DNA from: an uncultured Pelagibacteraceae bacterium
GTDB lineage: Bacteria; Pseudomonadota; Alphaproteobacteria; Pelagibacterales; Pelagibacteraceae
Assembly (NCBI GenBank): GCA_902538525.1
Contig: CACBFA010000004.1
Coordinates: forward strand, 1-50,252
Direction of reading: 5' to 3'
DNA: 50,252 nucleotides
Part shown: positions 1,835-14,385 of the stretch, piece by piece
How the letters are laid out: every line of letters starts with the position of its first letter
Numbering within the stretch: the stretch's first letter is position 1
Notes under the pieces: generated by a model
What the model was told of the DNA's origin: nothing
Database searches by the model: none
The model's input: only the letters and a program-made list of their open reading frames with translations
Made by a program: the position numbers and the translations under genes

Positions 1835-3559
1835 TTATTTTATAAAAAAATAAATTTTATAGCCTTTAAAATTATTTATGCTGATTTCATCTAATGTAAA
1901 ATCTGTTCCATTATAATAGTGAGTACACGGGCTTTTGCTATAATAACATTCACCTTTTTTTGATTTATAAAAAAATACTTCATTATTCTTTAAAATTTCA
2001 AGGTTATCCTTTTTTTTGAATGAATTTCCACTGTTGTATATATTTGGCCAAACACTTTTATTTTTATCAATACCTTCATATATTCGAACAAAATTCTTTA
2101 TTGTTACCAAAAAAATTACAAAAAATATTAAGTATTTCATTACATCTACAAATTTTTTTCTATTAGAAAAAAATTTGAAATTTACGCAATAAAATGAAAT
2201 TAATAGACCAGTTGTTGAAATTAAATATCCATAGCCATATCTAAAAACTGGAAATTTTAAAAACCAAATAATGCATCCTATAAAACTTATAAAAAAACAT
2301 AAATAAAAATTTTTATGAGTATTTGTTTCATTAGATTCTCTATCTTTATTTTTAGTATATTTATTTACCCTTATTTCATAAGTTTTTAAAATTATAATTA
2401 AAGCAAAAATAAAAATTGAAAATGGTAATAGTTTTTTAGTAATTGTTTTTCCTTCAGATGAAAGCCAAGTTTTGATCCAAGTATAATTATTTAAATATTC
2501 TGTATAATTTTTTTTGTTCTCAACTTGATTTACCCATCCCTTAGTCCATGCTTCATTTTCGACTCTAGCATTATAAGCATTACTCCCTCTATTACTATTA
2601 GCGTCATACCAATAAAGATTTTTAAAACACGTTTGTTCTAAAGGAAAAACTAAACAACCTGAAATAAGAAGATTTTTTCCCAAAAAAAATAAAATAAAAA
2701 TAAAACTAAAAATACTTAATTTGTTAATTAAATATTCAATCTTAAAATTTTTGATTATATAGAAAAAGGGAATAAAAAATGCTAGCAATAGAGTGATTTT
2801 ATTTAGAAAAATAAAAGTAGAAGCAATTATGGTTTTTTTTATTTTCAATAAACCGTTGTTACCTTTTAAACTTTCAATAATAATATAGAAAAAAAGAAGA
2901 TTCGCTGGTGCATCATTACCAAAATCGCTATATCTATTAACTCTAAATAAAATGAAAATAATTATTATGAAAATAAAAATTTTTAACATATTAGAATTTT
3001 TTTTTCTAATCAGTTCTATTAAACAGTAACCAAGAAAATTACAGAATATTATTCCTACAGGGATTGTGATCCCTTTATCTCCAAATATAAAATTATTATA
3101 AATTGCAGATAAATATTGCATTATAGATATGTGGCCAAATCTAAAATGAATATTATTAATACCAATTATAATCTTATTTTCATTTAATATACTTATGAAT
3201 GGCAGATGATATAAGCCTGCATCTGGTCTGTATGTTCCGTCATAAGACATGGTTAATGTAAGTAAAATAGAGACAGGTATCGAAAATAACAAAAATAATT
3301 TTATAAATCGTTTGTTAAAAAAAAACAAAAATAAAATAATAGGTAATAAAAATATTATTGTGTTAAATATTTTATCAAGGCTTGTAAAAAAGTTAAAAAA
3401 TAAACCAATAAAACTTAATGCAAATGCTCCGAATATACCTAACTCAAATATATTGTAATTATTTGAGATTTTATTATTGATAAATATAAGAAAAAATAAA
3501 TATCCACAAATATAAATGTGAATTGATGACAAATAACTATAAACTAAAATTTCGAGCAT
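1835..3559 (-). CDS. Polytopic membrane protein, possible GT-C-like glycosyltransferase
   Basis: A 574-residue protein with about ten or more hydrophobic segments and a soluble C-terminal tail. It shares ordered blocks with the island protein at 6129-7763: an Asp-containing D-x-x-L-Y-H-L block (here D113 to P120), FRFG (139-142), FGN followed by an NLLFF block (about 213-224), GCLVFP with a nearby TC (301-311), WIKTW and a late P-x-x-RY. Y117 and R140 are 23 residues apart, as in the paralogue. It resembles the uncharacterised family I remember as LIC_10190-type membrane proteins (uncertain). An acidic residue in the first outer loop and many membrane spans fit a GT-C enzyme that uses polyprenyl-phosphate sugars, which is inference. 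Flippase or polymerase remain possible. It is divergent from the FkbM gene. Confidence 0.6.
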   Translation of the reverse strand: MLEILVYSYLSSIHIYICGYLFFLIFINNKISNNYNIFELGIFGAFALSFIGLFFNFFTSLDKIFNTIIFLLPIILFLFFFNKRFIKLFLLFSIPVSILLTLTMSYDGTYRPDAGLYHLPFISILNENKIIIGINNIHFRFGHISIMQYLSAIYNNFIFGDKGITIPVGIIFCNFLGYCLIELIRKKNSNMLKIFIFIIIIFILFRVNRYSDFGNDAPANLLFFYIIIESLKGNNGLLKIKKTIIASTFIFLNKITLLLAFFIPFFYIIKNFKIEYLINKLSIFSFIFILFFLGKNLLISGCLVFPLEQTCFKNLYWYDANSNRGSNAYNARVENEAWTKGWVNQVENKKNYTEYLNNYTWIKTWLSSEGKTITKKLLPFSIFIFALIIILKTYEIRVNKYTKNKDRESNETNTHKNFYLCFFISFIGCIIWFLKFPVFRYGYGYLISTTGLLISFYCVNFKFFSNRKKFVDVMKYLIFFVIFLVTIKNFVRIYEGIDKNKSVWPNIYNSGNSFKKKDNLEILKNNEVFFYKSKKGECYYSKSPCTHYYNGTDFTLDEISINNFKGYKIYFFIK

Positions 3560-3591
3560 TAAATTATAAATAAATTTACTATATTTTTTAT

Positions 3592-4422
3592 ATGTTTTTT
3601 AAGAGTTTTGAAGCAGTTAAATTTAAAATAATAAGATTTATTGAGAGAAATTATAAATTAAATCTATTCATATATAATAACATTAATTTACTAAAATTCC
3701 TCCTACCCCACGAGAAAGATTATTATGGAATGTTATTGTTATGCAAACAAAAGAATAGTGGTGTAATCTTAGATATAGGAGCAAGTCTAGGTATATCCTC
3801 AATGGGATTTAGAAAGCTAGGTTTTAAAAATAAAATATATGCTTTTGAACCTAATTATTATTTATTCATTAATTATTTAAAAAAAAATTTTAAAAAAGAT
3901 AAAAAAATCTCACTTAAAAATATTGCACTCAGTAATGAAAATGGTTCAAGGATTATGTATTTCCCTTTTTATAATTCAAAATGTATTCACTACTTTAGCA
4001 GTTTTGATAAAAAATATCTTATTAATAGCATTAAAATTACATTTCCAAAATTATTAAAAAATTTAGTAATAAAAAAAAAGAAGATTAAATGTGTAAAATA
4101 TGATGATTTAAATTTACAAATTAAACCATATTTTATTAAAATTGATACTGAAGGGTATGATCATTTAGTCTTGGAGGGATTAAAAAAAACAATCAAAAAA
4201 TATAAACCGATATTTTTAATAGAATATAACCAAGAATATTATAATAATGTAAAAAAAATCTTAAATAATTATGCACCTTATATTTACGATATTAAGAAAA
4301 ATAAAATGATAAAGTTAGGAAAAAAAATAAATAATAAAAGAATTTCAAGAACCACTAAACTAAATTATTTATCAATAAGAAATATATATTTTATTCACAA
4401 AGATAAAGAAAATAAATTATGA
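3592..4422 (+). CDS. FkbM family methyltransferase
   Basis: A 276-residue SAM-dependent methyltransferase. VILDIGASLGISS (58-70) is the SAM-binding motif I and IKIDTEGYD (182-190) is the signature of the FkbM family. Members O-methylate sugars or related hydroxyl groups and are common in capsule and O-antigen clusters, so it probably decorates the glycan made by this island. The stop overlaps the start of the next glycosyltransferase by four bases (ATGA), showing translational coupling. It is divergent from the membrane-protein gene, with only 32 bases between the two starts. The methylated sugar is unknown. Confidence 0.82.
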   Translation: MFFKSFEAVKFKIIRFIERNYKLNLFIYNNINLLKFLLPHEKDYYGMLLLCKQKNSGVILDIGASLGISSMGFRKLGFKNKIYAFEPNYYLFINYLKKNFKKDKKISLKNIALSNENGSRIMYFPFYNSKCIHYFSSFDKKYLINSIKITFPKLLKNLVIKKKKIKCVKYDDLNLQIKPYFIKIDTEGYDHLVLEGLKKTIKKYKPIFLIEYNQEYYNNVKKILNNYAPYIYDIKKNKMIKLGKKINNKRISRTTKLNYLSIRNIYFIHKDKENKL

Positions 4423-5126
4423 TTGTTTCAGTTATAATACCTGTTTTTAATGAAGAGAAATATATTAAAGAGATTTTAACTAGAGTTAACAATGTAAAAA
4501 ATATTGAAAAAGAAATCATAGTTGTAAATGATTTTTCAACTGATAATACAAAAGAGATTTTAGAAAATGATTGCAAAAGTCTATACTCAAAACTAGTTAA
4601 TAACGATAAGAATATGGGCAAGGGTTTTTCTTGCAGAATAGGAATAAAAAATTCTACAGGGGATATTATATTAATTCAGGATGCAGACCTTGAATATAAT
4701 CCTGAAAATTTTAATAAACTTATCGAGCCGATTATTAACGGCAATGAAAAAGTTGTTTATGGATCTAGGGTTTTACCAGGAGGAAAAAGAACTAGACCAA
4801 AAACAATTGATTTTAAAGTAAGATATTTTGCAAATTTGTTTTTAACATTTTTGTCAAATATATTAAATAAACAAAATTTAACTGATTGCCATACGTGTTA
4901 TAAAGTTTTTAGATCTGATATCTTGAAAGAAATTGAATTATATGAAAACGGATTTTGTTTTTGTCCAGAAGTTACTGCAAAAGTATCCCGTCAAGGAGTT
5001 AAGATTAAAGAGGTAGCTATTGATTACTTTGGAAGGACACATTCTGAAGGTAAAAAAATAGTTTATTTTGATGGATTGAGAGCAATATATTCGATATTAA
5101 AGTACAATTTAATGAAAAATAGTTAA
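4419..5126 (+). CDS. GT2 glycosyltransferase, DPM1-like
   Basis: A 235-residue GT-A fold enzyme. SVIIPVFNEE (4-13) is the nucleotide-binding start, VVNDFSTDNT (35-44) follows, and the QDADLEYNP block carries the DxD metal motif at D88-D90. There are no C-terminal membrane helices, so it resembles the soluble catalytic domain of dolichol/polyprenyl-phosphate mannose synthases. It probably loads one sugar on undecaprenyl phosphate. The island protein at 8516-9217 is a paralogue: both have QDADLEY and a C-terminal GRT-x-SEGKKI block. It follows and overlaps the FkbM gene, and each DPM1-like gene lies near one of the large membrane proteins. The actual donor is not readable. Confidence 0.82.
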   Translation: MIVSVIIPVFNEEKYIKEILTRVNNVKNIEKEIIVVNDFSTDNTKEILENDCKSLYSKLVNNDKNMGKGFSCRIGIKNSTGDIILIQDADLEYNPENFNKLIEPIINGNEKVVYGSRVLPGGKRTRPKTIDFKVRYFANLFLTFLSNILNKQNLTDCHTCYKVFRSDILKEIELYENGFCFCPEVTAKVSRQGVKIKEVAIDYFGRTHSEGKKIVYFDGLRAIYSILKYNLMKNS

Positions 5127-5142
5127 TATTATTTTTATTTAC

Positions 5143-5148
5143 TATAAT
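5143..5148 (+). promoter_or_regulatory. Possible -10 box ahead of fcl
   Basis: A perfect TATAAT lies 19 bases before the fcl start in the 40-base gap after the upstream glycosyltransferase. No convincing -35 box is seen 16-18 bases upstream. In such AT-rich DNA the hexamer may be chance. Confidence 0.25.
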
Positions 5149-5166
5149 TTTTTTTAATTTACGCTT

Positions 5167-6111
5167 ATGAGAAAATCAAAACACTTCATAAATAAAAACG
5201 ATAAGGTTTTTTTAGCAGGCCACAAAGGTTTAGTTGGAAGTTCTGTGCTAAAAAAACTTCATATTAAAGGCTATAAAAACATTATAACAAGTTCTAAAAA
5301 AAAATTAAACTTATTAAACCAATCAAAAGTTTTTAATTTTATAAAAAAAAATAGGCCAAAAGCTATAATTATTTGTGCTGCTAGAGTTGGTGGTGTAAAT
5401 GCAAATAAAAATAAAAAAGCTGATTTTATTTATGAAAATTTAACAATTCAAAATAATATATTACATGCTGCTTTTAAAAATAAAGTAGAGAGGTTAGTTT
5501 TCTTGGGTTCAAGCTGTATTTATCCCGCAAAATCTAAACAACCAATTAAAGAAAATTATTTATTAACTGGTCCGCTTGAAGACACAAATGATGCGTACGC
5601 AATAGCTAAAATTGCTGGAATTAAATATTGTCAGTCCTTGAATGAACAATACGGAAAAAATTATATTTGTCTTATGCCAACAAATATTTTCGGAAAAAAT
5701 GATAATTATAATTTACAAAGTTCACATTTTATTCCTGCTTTAATAAGAAAGATTAGCACAGCTATTAAAAGGAAACAAAATTACATTGAGGTTTGGGGAA
5801 CTGGAACACCAAGAAGAGAAATTATGCATGTAGATGATTTAGCAGATGCAATAATTTATTTTTTAAACAAAAAAACAAAAGAAAGTTTAATCAATATTGG
5901 TTCAGGTTTTGAGAAGACTATAAATCAATATGCAAATTTATTAATTAAAATTTCAGGTAAAAAAATTAAAATTAAGAATGTTAAAAAAGATTTAAATGGA
6001 GTTAAAAGAAAACTTTTAGATGTTAGTTTGGCAAATAAATACGGTTGGAAATCAAAAAATAATATTATGTCAAAATTAAAAGAGACTTATCTACATTACA
6101 ATAAATTATAA
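5167..6111 (+). CDS. fcl: GDP-L-fucose synthase
   Basis: A 314-residue extended short-chain dehydrogenase. The GHKGLVG loop (18-24) binds NADPH, GSSCIYP (114-120) contains the catalytic serine, and YAIAK (144-148) contains the catalytic tyrosine and lysine. AARVGG is also typical of Fcl/WcaG. It epimerises and reduces GDP-4-keto-6-deoxymannose to GDP-L-fucose. The first half of the route, Gmd, is encoded at the other end of the island (9214-10242) on the opposite strand, so the pathway is complete from GDP-mannose. A 40-base gap with a possible -10 box precedes it. Confidence 0.9.
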   Translation: MRKSKHFINKNDKVFLAGHKGLVGSSVLKKLHIKGYKNIITSSKKKLNLLNQSKVFNFIKKNRPKAIIICAARVGGVNANKNKKADFIYENLTIQNNILHAAFKNKVERLVFLGSSCIYPAKSKQPIKENYLLTGPLEDTNDAYAIAKIAGIKYCQSLNEQYGKNYICLMPTNIFGKNDNYNLQSSHFIPALIRKISTAIKRKQNYIEVWGTGTPRREIMHVDDLADAIIYFLNKKTKESLINIGSGFEKTINQYANLLIKISGKKIKIKNVKKDLNGVKRKLLDVSLANKYGWKSKNNIMSKLKETYLHYNKL

Positions 6112-6128
6112 ATTCATATTAAGATAAA

Positions 6129-7763
6129 ATGGTTTACTTAACCCTGATTAATTTTACAATTATAATTTCAATATTTGGATATTCTTATTTAATTAAAAGA
6201 ATTTTATATAGAAATGACGACAACTATTTAAAAAATATAGACCTTTTTTTCGGACTTTTTTTTTTATTATTAATTTCCCTCATTATAAATTTCTTTTTTC
6301 CTTTAAATCAACTATCTAAATTTGTAATTTTTTTTGGGATTTTGCTTTTCATTATTTGCATATTTAAGAAGAAATCAGAAATATCACTAATAAAATATTT
6401 CTTTACTATATTTATATTCTCTACCATTGCATATTATGGAACAGATAATATTGACTCCCCGTTGTATCATCTGCAGGTAATAAAATGGCTAACAGAGCAT
6501 AAAATAACCTTTGGTCTTGCAAATCTTGGTTTTAGGCTTGGAGTTAATTACCCTTGGTTTTCAATAATAGGAGTTTTAAACATTGATTATAATTTTTTCT
6601 CAAATAAATATTATTTAAGTTTAATAATATTTTCATTTATTCTTTACGAAATTTTAAATCAAAAAAAAATTAATAAAGCCTTAATTTTTTTATCTTTATG
6701 TTTTAGTTACATATTTTTATTTAGTTTGATCCACCCTTTTAAGCATGGTGTAATTTTGAACCACTTTGGCAATCCTGAAAAAGATATATTCAACATGCTT
6801 TTATTTATAATTAATATTTATATTTTTTTAAACATAAATGAAAATCAAAATGAAAATGAAAAACAAAATTTTATTGCAATATTTTTTGTTACTTTAACCT
6901 TACTATTTATGCAAATGCCCATTTATATAAGTGTATTTCCAATTATATTATTTACATTATTTAAGCATTTCAAAATTAAGGACCATAAATATTTATTAAT
7001 TTTGATATTTACCATCTCAACTATTTGGATTTTAAGAAGTGTAATTATAAATGGTTGCTTAGTTTATCCTGCATCTTTTACATGCCTTAACACCAAATGG
7101 ACAGTAGATTTATCGCAAATAAGTCTAATGATTGAAGAAGTAAAGAAAATTTCAAGAAGTTTGCCAAGTTTAGAATTGATCAATAATACTTACGTAACTT
7201 TAGATACTTATCTTTGGCTTAAACCTTGGTTTAAAAATTACTTTCTAACCATGGCATTACATCAAATTAATTTGGTTTTAATATTGTCTTCCTTATTAAT
7301 AATAATTTTTCTTTTTGTGAGAAAAAAAATTAAATTTAAAAATTACGATTTTTATATAATAATATCAGTTTTGCTGGTGAATATTGTTTGCACCCTTCAA
7401 ATGCCTGAAATACGTTATTATTGGGGCCCCCATATTTCCTTGTCGTGTTTTTTTGTTTCATTACTAATGTATTCAAATAAAAATAAAATAATTCAAAATA
7501 AAAATATATACAAATATTTTTCAATAACAATTCTTGGATTATTTTTAATTTTTAAAGTAGTCCCATTTATAAAGCTCGAAAACTTTTTAAATCTTCCTGG
7601 ACGAAATTTTACTGTAAATAAAATTAAATTAGGTAATTTTGATGGATACAATGTTTATACCACAGATTGGTACTGTGCCGATATAAGCGAAATTTGTGTT
7701 AATTCCCCAAAAAAAAATTACTCATTTGACAATAAATATAATTATTTAATTATAAATAAATAG
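6129..7763 (+). CDS. Polytopic membrane protein, paralogue of the 1835-3559 product
   Basis: A 544-residue protein with many hydrophobic helices and a short C-terminal soluble tail. Blocks shared with the other island membrane protein occur in the same order: D109-x-x-L-Y-H-L, GFRLG (134-138), FGN with an NMLLF block (about 213-226), NGCLVYP with TC (308-319), WLKPW and P-E-I-RY near the C-terminus. Overall identity by eye is low, so the two diverged long ago or were acquired separately. It is followed within a few bases by two GT2 genes, the second DPM1-like. I infer a membrane glycosyltransferase acting on lipid-linked sugars; a transporter or polymerase cannot be excluded. Confidence 0.6.
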   Translation: MVYLTLINFTIIISIFGYSYLIKRILYRNDDNYLKNIDLFFGLFFLLLISLIINFFFPLNQLSKFVIFFGILLFIICIFKKKSEISLIKYFFTIFIFSTIAYYGTDNIDSPLYHLQVIKWLTEHKITFGLANLGFRLGVNYPWFSIIGVLNIDYNFFSNKYYLSLIIFSFILYEILNQKKINKALIFLSLCFSYIFLFSLIHPFKHGVILNHFGNPEKDIFNMLLFIINIYIFLNINENQNENEKQNFIAIFFVTLTLLFMQMPIYISVFPIILFTLFKHFKIKDHKYLLILIFTISTIWILRSVIINGCLVYPASFTCLNTKWTVDLSQISLMIEEVKKISRSLPSLELINNTYVTLDTYLWLKPWFKNYFLTMALHQINLVLILSSLLIIIFLFVRKKIKFKNYDFYIIISVLLVNIVCTLQMPEIRYYWGPHISLSCFFVSLLMYSNKNKIIQNKNIYKYFSITILGLFLIFKVVPFIKLENFLNLPGRNFTVNKIKLGNFDGYNVYTTDWYCADISEICVNSPKKNYSFDNKYNYLIINK

Positions 7764-7766
7764 AAT

Positions 7767-8519
7767 ATGAAAATTTCAATTATTACCGCCACATATAACA
7801 GTGAGGGCTTTATAATGTCAAATTTAAACTCTGTTAACTCTCAAACATATAAAAATTATGAGCATATAATAATTGACAATGAGTCTAAAGATAAAACTCT
7901 AGACATTATAAGAAATAATGGAAAAGGTGTAAAAATTATATCAGAAAAAGATGAAGGTATTTATGATGCTTTTAATAAAGGCATAGAATTAGCTACAGGT
8001 GATATAATTTCAATATTAAATTCAGATGATTACTATTCCGATAATAAAATTTTAGAAAATATTGTTGATATTTTTAAAAAAAAAAATGTAGGTATTGTTT
8101 ATGGAAACATAAATTATGTTAAAAGATATGGAGAAAAAAAAATATTAAGGTATTGGAAGTCAAATAAATATAAAACCAATGATTTTAAAATAGGTTGGTC
8201 TCCGCCCCATCCAGCTTTTTTTGTTAAAAAAAGTTTATATGATCAATATGGAAAGTATAAATCAATATACGGCAACTCATCAGATTTTGAACTTATGTAC
8301 AGATTTTTAGAAAAAAATAGATTAAGTAATGATTATATAGATAAAACACTCGTAACAATGAGGTTAGGAGGAAAATCTAACAAAAATTTGTCAGAAATTA
8401 TAAGACAAAATTTAATAATATTAGACATTCTTGATATCAAAAAAAACATTTACTTGATAACAAAATTTTTTGTTAATAAATTTATAAATCGAATAAAACA
8501 ATTAATCATTTTAAAATGA
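7767..8519 (+). CDS. GT2 glycosyltransferase (WcaA-like)
   Basis: A 250-residue GT-A glycosyltransferase. ISIITATYNSE (3-13) is the start of the nucleotide-binding fold, IIIDNESKDKT (34-44) follows, and NSDD (85-88) is the metal-binding motif. The ATATYNSE/EKDEGIYDAFNKG pattern is typical of family 2 enzymes of colanic-acid and O-antigen clusters. It should add one sugar to a lipid-linked intermediate at the inner face of the membrane. It starts three bases after the membrane-protein gene and its stop overlaps the next GT2 start (ATGA), so the three genes form one operon. Specificity is unknown. Confidence 0.85.
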   Translation: MKISIITATYNSEGFIMSNLNSVNSQTYKNYEHIIIDNESKDKTLDIIRNNGKGVKIISEKDEGIYDAFNKGIELATGDIISILNSDDYYSDNKILENIVDIFKKKNVGIVYGNINYVKRYGEKKILRYWKSNKYKTNDFKIGWSPPHPAFFVKKSLYDQYGKYKSIYGNSSDFELMYRFLEKNRLSNDYIDKTLVTMRLGGKSNKNLSEIIRQNLIILDILDIKKNIYLITKFFVNKFINRIKQLIILK

Positions 8520-9217
8520 GCAATTTCAAAATATCAGTTATTATTCCATGTTTTAATGAAGAGGAAACTATTGAAAAATTAGTTACTCAAGTTTTAATTC
8601 AAGATAGTTTAATTCATGAAATTATAATTGTTGATGATAAATCAACAGATAATTCAAGAGAATTAATAAAAAATATTGCAAACTCAAACCCCAAAATAAA
8701 ATATTTTTTTAAAGATGAAAATGAAGGAAAGGGGTCTGCTCTTATAAAAGGTTTTGCGGAATCAACTGGAGAAATAGTTTTAATACAAGATGCAGATTTA
8801 GAATATGATCCTCAAGAATATAAAAAGTTATTAAAACCATTTATTTCAACTAATGCAGATGTTGTATATGGGTCACGTTTCCTTGGCGGTGATATGATTA
8901 GATTACATTTTTTTTGGCATTATTTAGCAAATAAATTACTCACATTTATTTGTAACATTTTTACCAACTTAAATATGAGTGATATGGAAACTGGTTATAA
9001 AGTCATAAAGAAAAAACATTTACAATCAATAAAATTAAAAGAAAAATCTTTTGGTATAGAACCTGAACTGACTATAAAACTATCAAAACAAAAATTAATA
9101 TTTTATGAAGTTCCGATAAGTTACAGAGGAAGAACATATTCTGAGGGAAAAAAAATAGGATTAAAGGATGCTTTTATAGCTCTATATTGTATATTCAAAT
9201 ATAGATTTTTTGATTAA
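8516..9217 (+). CDS. GT2 glycosyltransferase, DPM1-like (paralogue of 4419-5126)
   Basis: A 233-residue GT-A enzyme. SVIIPCFNEEE (7-17), VDDKSTDNS (39-47) and the metal motif D92-A-D94 inside QDADLEYDP place it with polyprenyl-phosphate sugar synthases lacking membrane helices. It shares QDADLEY, VYGSR and GRT-x-SEGKKI with the product of 4419-5126. It probably makes an undecaprenyl-phosphate-linked sugar as donor for a membrane transferase; the nearest candidate is encoded at 6129-7763. It is last in its operon and its stop overlaps the stop of the convergent gmd gene by four bases. Confidence 0.82.
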   Translation: MSNFKISVIIPCFNEEETIEKLVTQVLIQDSLIHEIIIVDDKSTDNSRELIKNIANSNPKIKYFFKDENEGKGSALIKGFAESTGEIVLIQDADLEYDPQEYKKLLKPFISTNADVVYGSRFLGGDMIRLHFFWHYLANKLLTFICNIFTNLNMSDMETGYKVIKKKHLQSIKLKEKSFGIEPELTIKLSKQKLIFYEVPISYRGRTYSEGKKIGLKDAFIALYCIFKYRFFD

Positions 9218-10242
9218 GAATTATTACTGTAATATTTTAATTCTTCATCAATCATTATTTTTACAAGTTTTTTTAAATCTGTTCTGGGATGCCAATCTAA
9301 TTCTTTTTTTGCCAGTGAGGAATTACCTTTTAAAATATTTACTTCCGAGGGTCTAAATAATTTGGGATTTATTTTTACAATAACTCTTTTATTTTTAAGG
9401 TTTACAAGTTTTTCATTTATACCTTTGCCTACCCACTTAGTTTTAATACCTAGATAATTAGTAACAAGGTTAATAAAATATTTAATACTATACGTTTTTC
9501 CTGTTGATATTACATAATCCTTAGCTTTTTTTTGTTGAAGCATCTTCCACATCGCACTTACATATTCTTTTGCAAATCCCCAATCTCTTTTTGCATAAAT
9601 ATTACCTAGTTCTAAACAACTTAAATCATTATTAATTATTTTGCAAAAACCCAAAGTAATTTTTCTCGTAACAAATTCCTCACCCCTTAAAGGTGACTCG
9701 TGATTAAATAGAATACCAGAAACTGCAAAAATACCATATGATTTTCTATAATTATCAGTAACATGATGTCCAAAAACTTTTGAAATAGCATATGGACTTT
9801 GCGGATTCAAAATTGTTTTCTCATTTTGTTTTTTTTCAGCAATTTTTCCAAACATCTCTGAAGACGAAGCTTGATAAAATTTTATTTTTTTATTTATATT
9901 TTTTATTGTTTCTAGAATTCTTAAAACTCCTAATCCAGTTATATTTGATGTATTTAACGGACTTTTAAACGAAGTTGCTACAAAAGATTGTGCTGCAAGA
10001 TTATATACCTCATCAATTTTATATTTTCTAAAAATTCTTTCAATTTCATATAATTCACTTAATTCCATTTCTTCATATAAAATTTTGTTTAAAATTCCCA
10101 ATCTATTTAATCTCCAATTATTTCCTCTTGCAGATCTTCTATCAGTTCCAATTATTTTGTATTTTTTTTTAAGTAAGAATTCAGCAAGATAGGCACCGTC
10201 TTGACCTGATATTCCGGTTATTAAAGCTGTTTTTTTTGCCAT
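9214..10242 (-). CDS. gmd: GDP-mannose 4,6-dehydratase
   Basis: A 342-residue NADP-dependent SDR enzyme that makes GDP-4-keto-6-deoxymannose from GDP-mannose. TGISGQDGAYLAEFL contains the cofactor glycine loop (G10, G13, G16), ASSSEMFG (125-132) the catalytic serine and glutamate, and YAISK (151-155) the tyrosine-lysine pair. NHESPLRGEEFVTRK is a family signature. Length is close to the usual 340-370. With fcl in the same island it supplies GDP-L-fucose or a related 6-deoxyhexose. It is divergent from the 5S rRNA gene, with 101 bases between them, and has its own possible promoter there. Confidence 0.93.
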   Translation of the reverse strand: MAKKTALITGISGQDGAYLAEFLLKKKYKIIGTDRRSARGNNWRLNRLGILNKILYEEMELSELYEIERIFRKYKIDEVYNLAAQSFVATSFKSPLNTSNITGLGVLRILETIKNINKKIKFYQASSSEMFGKIAEKKQNEKTILNPQSPYAISKVFGHHVTDNYRKSYGIFAVSGILFNHESPLRGEEFVTRKITLGFCKIINNDLSCLELGNIYAKRDWGFAKEYVSAMWKMLQQKKAKDYVISTGKTYSIKYFINLVTNYLGIKTKWVGKGINEKLVNLKNKRVIVKINPKLFRPSEVNILKGNSSLAKKELDWHPRTDLKKLVKIMIDEELKYYSNNS

Positions 10243-11597: not shown

Positions 11598-12686
11598 ATG
11601 ATAATTGGTTCAATTTCAGAAAATTTAGAATATGAAAAGAGAGTGGCCATAACACCTGAAATTTTAAAAAAATATAAATCTCTAGGAATAGAAATATGTT
11701 TATGTAAAGATTACGCAACTCACATAGGTATAAATGATGATGATTTCATTTCGGAAGGGGCCAGTATATTAGATAGCAAAGAGGAAGTATTAAAAAAATC
11801 AAATTTAATTACACAACTAAATTTACCAAATGAAAAATATCTGAATAAATTGAAAAGTGACCAAATTTTAATTGGGGTATTGGATCCTTATAGAAATAAG
11901 AGCAAGCTAAAAGAGATGAAAGAAAAAAAAATAGATTGTTTTTCACTTGAATTGTTGCCAAGAATAACGAGAGCTCAGTCAATGGACATTCTCTCATCAC
12001 AAGCTAATTTAGCAGGATACAAAGCAGTAATTGATTCATTTGCTTTTTTTCAAAAAGCAATACCTATGATGATGACTGCGGCAGGTACAATTTCAGCAGC
12101 AAAAGTTTTGGTTGTTGGAGCTGGAGTTGCAGGTTTGCAGGCAATTGCAACTGCAAAAAGAATGGGAGCCATAGTTTTTGCTACAGATGTTAGGATTGCT
12201 TCAAAAGAACAGGTTGAAAGTCTAGGAGGTAAATTTTTAACTGTTGAGGGTTCAGAAAATTTAGAAACAGAAGGCGGTTATGCAAAAGAGACATCTGATG
12301 AATTTAAAAAAAAACAAGAGGATTTACTAAAAGAAACTTTAAAAAAAATTGATATTGTCATATGTACTGCATTAATACCAGGCAAAGAAGCACCACTAAT
12401 AATAAAAAAAGATATGATTGATGTAATGCCAAATGGTTCAATTATTTATGATTTAGCAGCTTCCCAAGGTGGAAATTCAGAATTAACAAAAGTTGATGAA
12501 GTGGTAGAAAATAATGGAGTTAAAATTATGGGAGAAAGAAATATTTTAAACAAACTTCCAGTTTCCTCTTCAAACCTTTATTCTAAAAATATATACAATT
12601 TTGTAGAAAATTTGTTCAATAAAGATAAGAAAACTTTTGAAATAAATTTAGAAGATGAAATAATCAGTAAAACAATTTTAAAGTAA
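11598..12686 (+). CDS. pntAA: NAD(P) transhydrogenase subunit alpha part 1
   Basis: A 362-residue cytoplasmic NAD(H)-binding domain (domain I) of proton-translocating transhydrogenase. EKRVAITPE near the start, the RAQSMDILSSQANLAGYKAV block and the VGAGVAGLQAIATAKRMGA glycine loop are family signatures shared with alanine dehydrogenase. The partner genes pntAB and pntB follow at once (one-base overlap, then a two-base gap), giving the three-gene split known from Rhodospirillales and other alphaproteobacteria. The complex uses the proton gradient to transfer hydride from NADH to NADP+, supplying NADPH for biosynthesis. The ATG is one base after the upstream stop. Confidence 0.95.
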   Translation: MIIGSISENLEYEKRVAITPEILKKYKSLGIEICLCKDYATHIGINDDDFISEGASILDSKEEVLKKSNLITQLNLPNEKYLNKLKSDQILIGVLDPYRNKSKLKEMKEKKIDCFSLELLPRITRAQSMDILSSQANLAGYKAVIDSFAFFQKAIPMMMTAAGTISAAKVLVVGAGVAGLQAIATAKRMGAIVFATDVRIASKEQVESLGGKFLTVEGSENLETEGGYAKETSDEFKKKQEDLLKETLKKIDIVICTALIPGKEAPLIIKKDMIDVMPNGSIIYDLAASQGGNSELTKVDEVVENNGVKIMGERNILNKLPVSSSNLYSKNIYNFVENLFNKDKKTFEINLEDEIISKTILK

Positions 12687-12988
12687 TGGAAATAGATCCT
12701 TTTATATTCAGACTAAGCATTTTTATACTATCAATTTTTGTAGGATATTATGTCGTATGGAGTGTAACACCTTCTTTGCACACACCTTTAATGTCGGTAA
12801 CAAATGCAATTTCATCAGTTATAATAGTAGGAGCAATAATTGCAGCACTTGCTGGATCTAAACAAAGTATATTTGAAATTTCAAATATTTTTGGATTTTT
12901 TGCGATAATTCTAGCAGCAGTAAATATTTTTGGTGGTTTTCTAGTTACTCAAAGAATGTTGCAAATGTACAAAAAGAAGAAAAAATAA
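12686..12988 (+). CDS. pntAB: NAD(P) transhydrogenase subunit alpha part 2
   Basis: A 100-residue membrane protein with three or four helices: about 8-25, 33-58 and 66-90. Conserved elements include VVWSVTPSLHTPLMSVTNAI and GGFLVTQRML, both typical of the small domain II fragment of split transhydrogenases. It forms part of the proton channel with PntB. The start overlaps the pntAA stop by one base (TAATG), so translation is coupled. Confidence 0.95.
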   Translation: MEIDPFIFRLSIFILSIFVGYYVVWSVTPSLHTPLMSVTNAISSVIIVGAIIAALAGSKQSIFEISNIFGFFAIILAAVNIFGGFLVTQRMLQMYKKKKK

Positions 12989-12990
12989 AA

Positions 12991-14385
12991 ATGTCAGCTA
13001 ATTTATCAGCATTATTTTATCTAATTTCAGGAATATTATTTATACTTGCATTAAGAGGCCTATCTTCCCCAGAAACATCTAGACAAGGAAATTACTTTGG
13101 TATTGCAGGAATGACTATTTCAATAATTGTTACTTTTCTCTCTGTAGGTAATTTTGGACCTGGCTTTATTTATGTTTTAATATTTCTTTTAATCGGAGGA
13201 TCGATAGGGGCAATAATAGCATTTAAGATACCAATGACAGCAATGCCAGAACTTGTGGCGGGTTTTCATAGCCTCGTCGGTCTTGCAGCGGTTTTTGTTG
13301 CAATATCCGCTTTTTTAAAACCGGATGCGTTTGGCTTGGGGATTGTCGGAAATATTAAGTTGGCTAGTTTAATCGAAATGTCTTTAGGGGCAGCAATTGG
13401 TGCTATTACTTTTTCGGGATCAATAATTGCATTTTTAAAATTAAGAGGAATCATGTCAGGTGCACCAATTACTTTTAAAGGCCAGCATTTTATTAATCTT
13501 CTTCTTGGTCTAGCAATAATATTTTTGATTTACTATTTATGTGTTAACCAACTATCAAATATTTTTTGGTCAATAGTTTTAATCTCTTTTATTGTTGGAG
13601 TATTATTAATAATCCCAATTGGTGGTGCAGATATGCCTGTCGTTATATCAATGCTTAATTCTTACTCAGGTTGGGCAGCAGCAGGGATCGGATTTACTCT
13701 AGAAAATACCGCTCTTATAATTACAGGTGCTTTAGTTGGATCATCAGGTGCAATTTTATCTTACATAATGTGCAAAGGTATGAACAGGTCTTTCTTTAAT
13801 GTTATATTAGGAGGATGGGGTGCTACAGATCAAAAAACAACTTCAGGAAGCAAAGAACAAAAACCAGTAAAAAGCGGAAATGCAGATGATGCAGCTTTTT
13901 TAATGAAAAATGCCTCCTCAGTAATAATTGTTCCAGGATATGGAATGGCAGTTGCTCAAGCTCAACACGCGTTAAGAGAAATGGTTGACGCTTTAAAAAA
14001 AAATGGAGTTAAAGTGTCTTATGCAATACATCCAGTTGCAGGTAGAATGCCAGGTCATATGAATGTTTTATTAGCAGAGGCCAATGTTCCATATGATGAG
14101 GTTTTTGAATTAGAAGAAATTAATAATGACTTCGCAAATTGCGATGTGGCATATGTCATTGGCGCAAATGATGTAACTAATCCTGTCGCGAAATCAGATC
14201 CAAAGAGCCCCATTTATGGCATGCCTGTTTTGGATGTTGAAAAAAGTAAATCTGTTTTGTTTGTTAAGCGTAGTTTATCCCCTGGATATGCTGGAATAGA
14301 TAATGACCTTTTCTACAGGGACAATACTCTGATGTTATTTGCAGATGCTAAAAAAATGACCGAGGAAATTGTTAAGAGTTTATAG
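12991..14385 (+). CDS. pntB: NAD(P) transhydrogenase subunit beta
   Basis: A 464-residue protein. The first 270 residues hold about eight or nine membrane helices of the proton channel, including the AMPELVAGFHSLVGLAAV block. The C-terminal domain III, from about residue 285, binds NADP(H), with VPGYGMAVAQAQHALREM and the HPVAGRMPGHMNVLLAEA block, and GANDVTNPVA near the end. Length matches E. coli PntB. It is the last gene of the transhydrogenase operon and converges with the methyltransferase gene, 15 bases apart; no strong hairpin is seen between them. Confidence 0.95.
   Translation: MSANLSALFYLISGILFILALRGLSSPETSRQGNYFGIAGMTISIIVTFLSVGNFGPGFIYVLIFLLIGGSIGAIIAFKIPMTAMPELVAGFHSLVGLAAVFVAISAFLKPDAFGLGIVGNIKLASLIEMSLGAAIGAITFSGSIIAFLKLRGIMSGAPITFKGQHFINLLLGLAIIFLIYYLCVNQLSNIFWSIVLISFIVGVLLIIPIGGADMPVVISMLNSYSGWAAAGIGFTLENTALIITGALVGSSGAILSYIMCKGMNRSFFNVILGGWGATDQKTTSGSKEQKPVKSGNADDAAFLMKNASSVIIVPGYGMAVAQAQHALREMVDALKKNGVKVSYAIHPVAGRMPGHMNVLLAEANVPYDEVFELEEINNDFANCDVAYVIGANDVTNPVAKSDPKSPIYGMPVLDVEKSKSVLFVKRSLSPGYAGIDNDLFYRDNTLMLFADAKKMTEEIVKSL

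Follow-up and report, generated by a model that had tools for sequence, protein, structure and literature searches.

The window examined here, a 50,252-nt stretch of DNA from a Pelagibacteraceae (SAR11) genome that is 79% complete, carries at one of its ends a polysaccharide island in which two intact open reading frames (ORFs) encode membrane proteins, hereafter A and B (Table 1; residue numbers are those of the proteins). Both belong to the named family NF047510, the models of both resemble glycosyltransferases of the GT-C fold, and each lies near one family 2 glycosyltransferase (GT2) of the DPM1 type, as a sequence-only reading of the window had stated: GT2a starts 860 bp past A, with an FkbM-type gene in between, and ends approximately 1 kb ahead of B, and GT2b starts 753 bp past B, with a WcaE-like gene in between. 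It is likely that A and B are GT-C enzymes that use a polyprenyl-phosphate sugar, the acceptor being left open; this reading overlaps with one, weighed below, in which protein or lipid A is the acceptor.

Two Members of Family NF047510

By BLASTP, A and B align with 50.8 bits and an E-value of 7e-11 (27% identity over 338 residues), and at such an E-value the likeness is beyond chance; on the strength of their sequences the two proteins are homologous. The ordered blocks recognized earlier are present in both, namely DAGLYHL (A residues 113-119) or DSPLYHL (B residues 109-115), FRFG or FRLG, GCLVFP..TC or GCLVYP..TC, WIKTW or WLKPW, and PVFRY or PEIRY, and the spacing from the Tyr to the Arg is 23 residues in each protein (Y117 to R140 in A and Y113 to R136 in B). 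FGN, which had been listed as a further common block, proved not to be one: in alignments of 51 and 32 members, FGN-D216 of A aligns with GNPEK-D219 of B, the FGN letters being offset by three. The conserved residue of this region is the Asp that follows (D216 in A, D219 in B), found in all 51 members.

Columns D113, Y117, G133, D216, C302, C311, W361, P437 and R440 (A numbering) are identical in 51/51 members, those of class C included. In a 65-member alignment, composed of A, B and 63 proteins from loci found by class-A patterns, H118, P306, K488, C538 and C545 are additionally invariant, and G133 and D216 nearly so; among the 51 members, C538 is present in 45 and C545 in 41. B is divergent in that it is without K254, which is present in the other 50.

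Both proteins cover nearly the whole of the NCBIfam profile NF047510 (LIC_10190 family membrane protein) with scores above its curated cut-off of 100, and because both pass that cut-off, the claim that they define an undescribed family fails; the family is already named, with a name that carries no function. In the literature library searched, no paper names LIC_10190, NF047510, DUF1420 or DUF6056, and none joins SAR11 with polyprenyl- or dolichol-phosphate. No relative was detected in a scan of viral contigs, nor was any match at E 0.001 returned by a fold search of BFVD. The WWDYG-type motif, a mark of the GT66 oligosaccharyltransferases (PglB/STT3), was absent from A in a pattern scan. When 32 family members were scanned against Pfam, one matched DUF6056 (E 9.9e-8) and three matched 7TMR-DISM_7TM (best E 5e-4).

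A likeness by profile alignment concerns DUF1420 (PF07220), proteins of which are encoded in the same islands (cluster 26: L039:5880-7676 and L137:11678-13474, where L numbers denote loci). They align with the NF047510 profile by hhalign at 64-87% probability, and the printed member has the D-x-x-x-Y-H motif, whereas DUF1420 is a separate Pfam family by which A and B are not matched. Judging from these alignments, DUF1420 and NF047510 may form one superfamily.

Predicted Fold and Topology

AlphaFold models built on family alignments were obtained with a predicted local distance difference test (pLDDT) value of 92.6 and a predicted template modeling score (pTM) of 0.94 for A, and 87.5 and 0.90, respectively, for B. 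They give approximately 14 membrane helices and not the ten or so spans counted previously; four of these helices precede the loop that bears the conserved Asp or run into it. In structural comparisons with VIA, for which the 50 best matches were listed per model, ranks 1-33 for A (Z 11.6 to 4.1) and 1-39 for B (Z 12.0 to 4.5) are all GT-C proteins, and unrelated folds appear only after this run, at Z 3.9 and 3.2, respectively. As these Z values fall short of 13, the guide value where proteins are helical, and can be ordinary in that group, weight is placed on the unbroken run of GT-C proteins in both lists. The proteins matched by both models are ALG12, ArnT, Pmt4, ALG3, ALG9, STT3/AglB/PglB, AftA/AftB, Emb and DPY19, with PimE in addition for A and ALG6 for B; some of the listed chains, from oligosaccharyltransferase, translocon and GPI-transamidase entries, are STT3 or PIG-U. 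ArnT is matched by A at Z 11.6 over 375 residues (5ezm; root-mean-square deviation 5.9) and by B at Z 12.0 over 359 residues (5f15; root-mean-square deviation 5.5). With regard to a flippase or polymerase fold, which had been named as the result that would speak against a GT-C-like protein, no Wzx flippase, Wzy/WaaL or SEDS fold is among the 50 best VIA matches listed for either model, an absence from a ranked and capped list that falls short of exclusion. With GT-C proteins such as ArnT and PglB leading the lists of two confident models, the GT-C-like character first suggested from the sequence is well supported by the predicted structures.

The alignments of A with ArnT, the ALG proteins and Pmt4 start at residue 82-89, whereas those with Emb, AftA, PglB and DPY19 mostly start earlier, at 21-33. 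The later start suggests three extra N-terminal helices, and it seems from the model that these stand ahead of an ArnT/PMT-like core. If the first aligned pair is carried on without gaps, D113 of A falls at ArnT residue 55 or 56 and D109 of B at residue 54; D55/E56 are given as the ArnT active site in a passage of PMC7801869. That an Asp lies in the first outer loop, as had been proposed, is borne out by the invariance of D113/D109 and by the charge pattern, its catalytic role being a prediction. With helices taken from the model, the net K+R per residue is 0.046 to 0.257 for inner-side loops and -0.047 to 0.151 for those of the other side, the exceptions that overlap the weaker inner loops being two short outer loops beside K254 and R440 (0.107 and 0.151) and the C-terminal domain (0.061). 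D113, Y117, H118, R140, D216, K254, both Cys pairs, W361, W365 and R440 are located within outer loops or border on them. An excerpt of PMC10920833 describes outer-face conservation for GT-C families that use diphospholipids, and lists four of five GT-CA families with lipid-phosphate-monosaccharide donors.

A sequence link to the PMT_2 proteins of SAR11 was seen by hhalign, which aligned the family profile with 20 pooled PMT_2 proteins (19 over the PMT_2 cut-off and one under) at 93-95% probability over 68-107 columns, a match that omits D113 and arises with the pooled alignment only; with single PMT_2 proteins or small groups the value was 21% or less. Clusters that themselves match PMT_2 (27, 28 and 31) aligned with the family at 0.8-15%, and controls (Wzy_C, WecA-like, PntA2 and PntB clusters) at 1.1% or less, a weaker Wzy_C cluster reaching at most 4.8%. 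Cluster 31 (L034:10646-11827, L140:16340-17521 and relatives) comprises membrane proteins of approximately 393 amino acids, the printed member with a GSDED motif. Found within 150 bp of eight family genes, and upstream of class-B members in the gene orders examined, it aligns with the pooled PMT_2 proteins at 94% and, by this sequence likeness, is probably another GT-C enzyme.

The DPM1-Like GT2 and the Gene Neighborhood

For both GT2a and GT2b, the best match among solved structures is dolichol monophosphate mannose synthase (5mlz), with ArnC and sll0501 (GtrB) also among the matches. Neighborhoods were counted for 111 distinct family genes, all in loci that the family itself had served to locate. 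Of 123 family ORFs, 12 had been removed as identical or contained copies, the decayed copy of genome G026 and the cut copies of L142 and L103 (262 amino acids) lay outside the set, and one gene (L143, cluster 449) was assigned to no class. The cluster holding both window GT2s occurs within 4 kb of 93/111 family genes, and for 63/111 the distance is no more than 150 bp; at this closer range, the comparison with other genes of the same loci is 63/113 versus 165/1,597. Divided by class, the GT2 is within 150 bp of 57/74 class-A, 4/26 class-C and 2/10 class-B genes, and within 4 kb of 70/74, 14/26 and 8/10, respectively. A conserved neighborhood with DPM1-like genes, as anticipated by the sequence-only reading, is thus found for class A and at the level of whole genomes (see below), and is not general by position, given the counts for classes C and B.

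In the class-C loci L065, L060, L051 and L078, the family member adjoins an FkbM methyltransferase gene (cluster 17) and a WecA-like gene (cluster 12) is nearby; the FkbM cluster is within 150 bp of 14/111 family genes, of all classes. L065 and L060 have no GT2 in the 20 kb, and their genomes carry one elsewhere.

The remaining genes of the window's island are listed with A, B and the two GT2s in Table 1. Clusters of the window genes at 11598-14385, read as pntA/pntB transhydrogenase genes, have 71, 69 and 69 copies across the loci and often flank the island on one side, so that they are likely to mark a conserved boundary.

Table 1. Genes and predicted sequence features of the polysaccharide island
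Feature	Position	Strand	Basis
A, 574 aa, NF047510 class A, GT-C-like membrane protein	1835..3559	-	NF047510 134.3 bits; model pLDDT 92.6; structural ranks 1-33 GT-C
B, 544 aa, NF047510 class B, GT-C-like membrane protein	6129..7763	+	NF047510 131.8 bits; model pLDDT 87.5; structural ranks 1-39 GT-C
A D113-x-x-x-Y117-H118-L, predicted catalytic-Asp loop	3203..3223	-	D113, Y117 invariant in 51/51 and 65/65 members; ungapped extrapolation to ArnT 55 or 56
B D109-x-x-x-Y113-H114-L, predicted catalytic-Asp loop	6453..6473	+	Member alignments; ungapped extrapolation to ArnT 54
A G301-C302...P306...C311, outer-loop Cys pair	2627..2659	-	C302, C311 in 51/51 members
B G309-C310...P314...C319, outer-loop Cys pair	7053..7085	+	Member alignments
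A P437-x-x-R440-Y	2237..2251	-	P, R in 51/51 members
B P426-x-x-R429-Y	7404..7418	+	Member alignments
GT2a, DPM1-like GT2, 235 aa, probable polyprenyl-phosphate sugar synthase	4419..5126	+	PF00535 E 1.3e-34; best solved match 5mlz E 4.6e-22
GT2b, DPM1-like GT2, 233 aa, probable polyprenyl-phosphate sugar synthase	8516..9217	+	PF00535 E 3.4e-39; 5mlz E 1.6e-25 over 3-220, then ArnC; sll0501 also matched
FkbM-type methyltransferase, between A and GT2a	3592..4422	+	PF05050 E 4.4e-13
Fcl-like (GDP-fucose synthase-like) SDR	5167..6111	+	NF047922 381 bits, below cut-off 500
WcaE-like GT2, between B and GT2b	7767..8519	+	wcaE model 58.4 bits, far under cut-off 369
Gmd-like GDP-mannose 4,6-dehydratase	9214..10242	-	TIGR01472 395 bits, below cut-off 415

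Co-occurrence and Co-divergence Across Genomes

The association was also followed in 147 genomes of the order (49 with the family and 98 without) and 76 of the window's genus (48 with and 28 without), the genome G026, with its decayed copy, being counted as lacking the family and G082, with a cut copy, as having it. A GT2 profile (A5) at 130 bits, a threshold chosen after the scores had been seen and with similar outcomes at 106 and 140 bits, detected the GT2 in 45/49 genomes of the order with the family versus 8/98 without it; among the former, it was found in 22/23 genomes of class A/B and 23/26 of class C. In the genus, the counts are 44/48 versus 7/28 (Fisher p 3e-9), a p-value that, like the others given here, overstates independence because the genomes and loci are related and the loci were found through the family. 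The profile itself was built from GT2s that were picked because they adjoin family genes, most of them (nearly all) of class A, and for this reason may favor genomes with the family. The absence of the GT2 from class-C genomes was considered and rejected: a single query at E 1e-25 gave 2/26 for class C (22/23 for A/B and 8/98 without the family), whereas the profile at 130 bits finds a more distant GT2 in 23/26. One of the seven exceptions in the genus is G026, where the decayed family copy (G026:C1:1006817-1007620) has 12 in-frame stops and the GT2 is still in the genome.

Distances between family members correlate with those between the GT2s (Mantel r 0.70, 77 pairs, 0/2,000 permutations; one GT2, of L188, was excluded as too short), a relationship that mostly reflects the split between classes A and C. 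For class C alone the correlation is 0.29 (20 pairs, 14/2,000); for class A alone it is 0.35 (57 pairs, 0/2,000) and drops to 0.18 (171/2,000) upon thinning to 39 pairs, so that close co-divergence inside a class was not upheld.

Distant Relatives

In a sample of the phylum, the family was found at E 1e-10 in 6/398 genomes, that of the window included, four being over the cut-off. The member in G209 overlaps a same-strand GT2 by 4 bp, and this GT2 matches GtrB over residues 7-271. In G543, the gene order is the family member, an SDR-like gene (as read from its sequence), a GT2 and a membrane protein of approximately 200 amino acids, the last two matching those of G209. Since both genomes are of one taxonomic family, in which a member occurs in 2/16 genomes, they amount to one independent case. 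Weak distant matches in G399 and G524 were rejected, being below the cut-off and with no family ORF in the ORF calls.

The membrane protein of approximately 200 amino acids that is encoded beside the GtrB-like GT2 in two genomes of one distant family (L193:6870-7466 and L197:5612-6226) is a possible flippase; the L193 copy matched no Pfam family above the cut-off.

Proposed Function and Its Alternatives

A and B are proposed to be GT-C glycosyltransferases of the GT-CA type with an ArnT/PMT-like core. At the cytoplasmic side of the membrane, the DPM1-like GT2 would make a polyprenyl-phosphate monosaccharide, which a flippase would turn over; the GT-C protein would then take the lipid-linked sugar from the membrane, with the invariant Asp that lies in the core's first outer loop (D113 in A, D109 in B) presumably activating the acceptor hydroxyl group, and the sugar would be transferred in the periplasm, most likely onto a surface polysaccharide. 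The presence of two paralogs and two GT2s in one island could reflect two different sugars or two positions of addition. That the donor sugar derives from GDP-mannose is a guess, made because of the Gmd- and Fcl-like neighbors and the likeness of the GT2s to mannose synthase.

Several observations weigh against this proposal. No Pfam GT-C family is matched: a scan of A and B at E 0.1 gave no hit, including to PMT/PMT_2, Wzy_C and DUF1420, and none of the 32 members scanned at E 1 matched PMT or PMT_2; sequence searches of solved structures, for which A, B and also the 65-member profile served as queries, returned no match. The hhalign link to PMT_2 has the limits described above. Among the structural data, Foldseek by itself is weak (best E 0.30 for A and 0.035 for B), and the VIA scores lie under the guide value. 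With regard to the partner gene, GT2 adjacency is low in classes C and B, FkbM genes of the window's FkbM cluster adjoin the GT2 more often than the family does (within 150 bp in 14/18), and no more than 14/63 adjacent cases have the GT2 on the strand of the family gene, so the pairing is mostly not that of an operon. At the genome level, 4/48 family genomes of the genus lack the GT2 at 130 bits, and a control, the WcaE-like GT2 of the island, co-occurs with the family as well, more weakly (30/48 versus 7/28 in the genus, p 0.002), with the caveat that it was sought with one sequence and the DPM1-like GT2 with a profile. The class-A distance correlation weakened upon thinning. GtrA (PF04138) was found in 3/147 genomes of the order, all of another family, and in none of the window's genus or in its own 79%-complete genome. 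Finally, of the three distant genomes over the cut-off in the phylum sample, two showed no GT2 nearby: none was seen in 19.5 kb of G156, or in the 12 kb available for G168, where the member is at a contig edge and its ORF is not among the predictions of the ORF caller.

Of the alternatives, the one closest to the proposed function keeps its mechanism and places the sugar on protein or on lipid A, in PMT-like or ArnT-like fashion. ArnT and Pmt4 are indeed among the best structural matches, but the family genes share variable islands with genes for nucleotide sugars and glycosyltransferases, and a separate PMT_2 protein is present in 86 of the 147 genomes sampled from the order (that of the window, which is incomplete, not being one of them); such an acceptor is given a minor, if appreciable, chance.

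A GT-C-fold O-antigen polymerase or ligase that acts on polyprenyl-diphosphate oligosaccharides and is comparable, for instance, to CAZy GT122-124, whose long loop is close to the N-terminus, would suit the O-antigen-type islands in which the family sits and the frequent lack of a linked GT2 in class C. A long N-terminal loop is described for the GT-C3 polymerases in PMC10920833, and a WecA-like cluster is within 4 kb of 35/111 family genes and a Wzy_C cluster of 38/111 (each labeled from one representative). However, loci with a Wzy_C protein already have their ligase or polymerase, the hhalign values of the family with both Wzy_C clusters are those given above for the control and the weaker cluster, and the DPM1-like GT2 co-occurs even where it is unlinked, with two distant members near GtrB/ArnC-like genes as well. 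This function is consequently considered rather improbable.

That A and B are flippases or transporters and no enzymes is very improbable: transporters and WzxE are among the weak Foldseek matches of A (ranks 2-8; WzxE is a weak match for B also) and the transporter 8a6l_B is in the structural list of A at Z 2.6, but those Foldseek matches, with query TM-scores of approximately 0.1, do not recur in the 50 best VIA matches listed, which GT-C proteins lead unbroken, and it is in the outer loops that conserved polar residues are concentrated.

Relationship to Known Systems

The paradigms for a GT-C enzyme served by a GT2 are ArnC/ArnT and GtrB/Gtr, and in the GT136 system a phosphoribose synthase takes the place of the GT2 (PMC11127046). 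ArnT (GT83) ranks first or joint first among the structural matches of each model, and with ArnT and ArnC the proposed GT-C enzymes have in common an Asp in the core's first outer loop and a partner GT2; they differ in the apparent extra N-terminal helices, the DxxxYH motif, the conserved Cys pairs and a short C-terminal domain, and the identity is only 6-8%. As in the Gtr systems (GtrA/GtrB/Gtr), a GT2 of the DPM1/GtrB kind would be combined with a GT-C protein in the modification of a surface glycan, GT2 adjacency here being mainly a feature of class A. In contrast to them, the GT2 is sometimes unlinked, some genomes have two paralogs per island, and no GtrA was detected in the sample of the window's genus, for which reason the genes have not been filed as a Gtr system. 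Relative to NF047510 as previously defined, with A and B over its cut-off, the fold, the partner gene and the class structure are new.

Significance

A named family without an assigned function is thereby provided with a fold, a partner enzyme and a likely location of the active site, and it is one that is present in 48/76 sampled genomes of a single SAR11 genus. The lack of GtrA raises the question of which flippase serves it. More broadly, and only tentatively, at somewhat less than even confidence, NF047510 could be a GT-C glycosyltransferase family and a candidate for a new CAZy family, which in SAR11 would have split into three classes (A, B and C) and, joined to DPM1-like GT2s matched by class and lacking GtrA, would form exchangeable two-gene cassettes for decoration of the surface glycan, with a possible effect on phage recognition. 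Surface islands of SAR11 are thought to vary under selection, evading phages and predators, as stated in PMC4053759, and on that view a cassette for the periplasmic addition of sugars would be a testable source of this surface variation.

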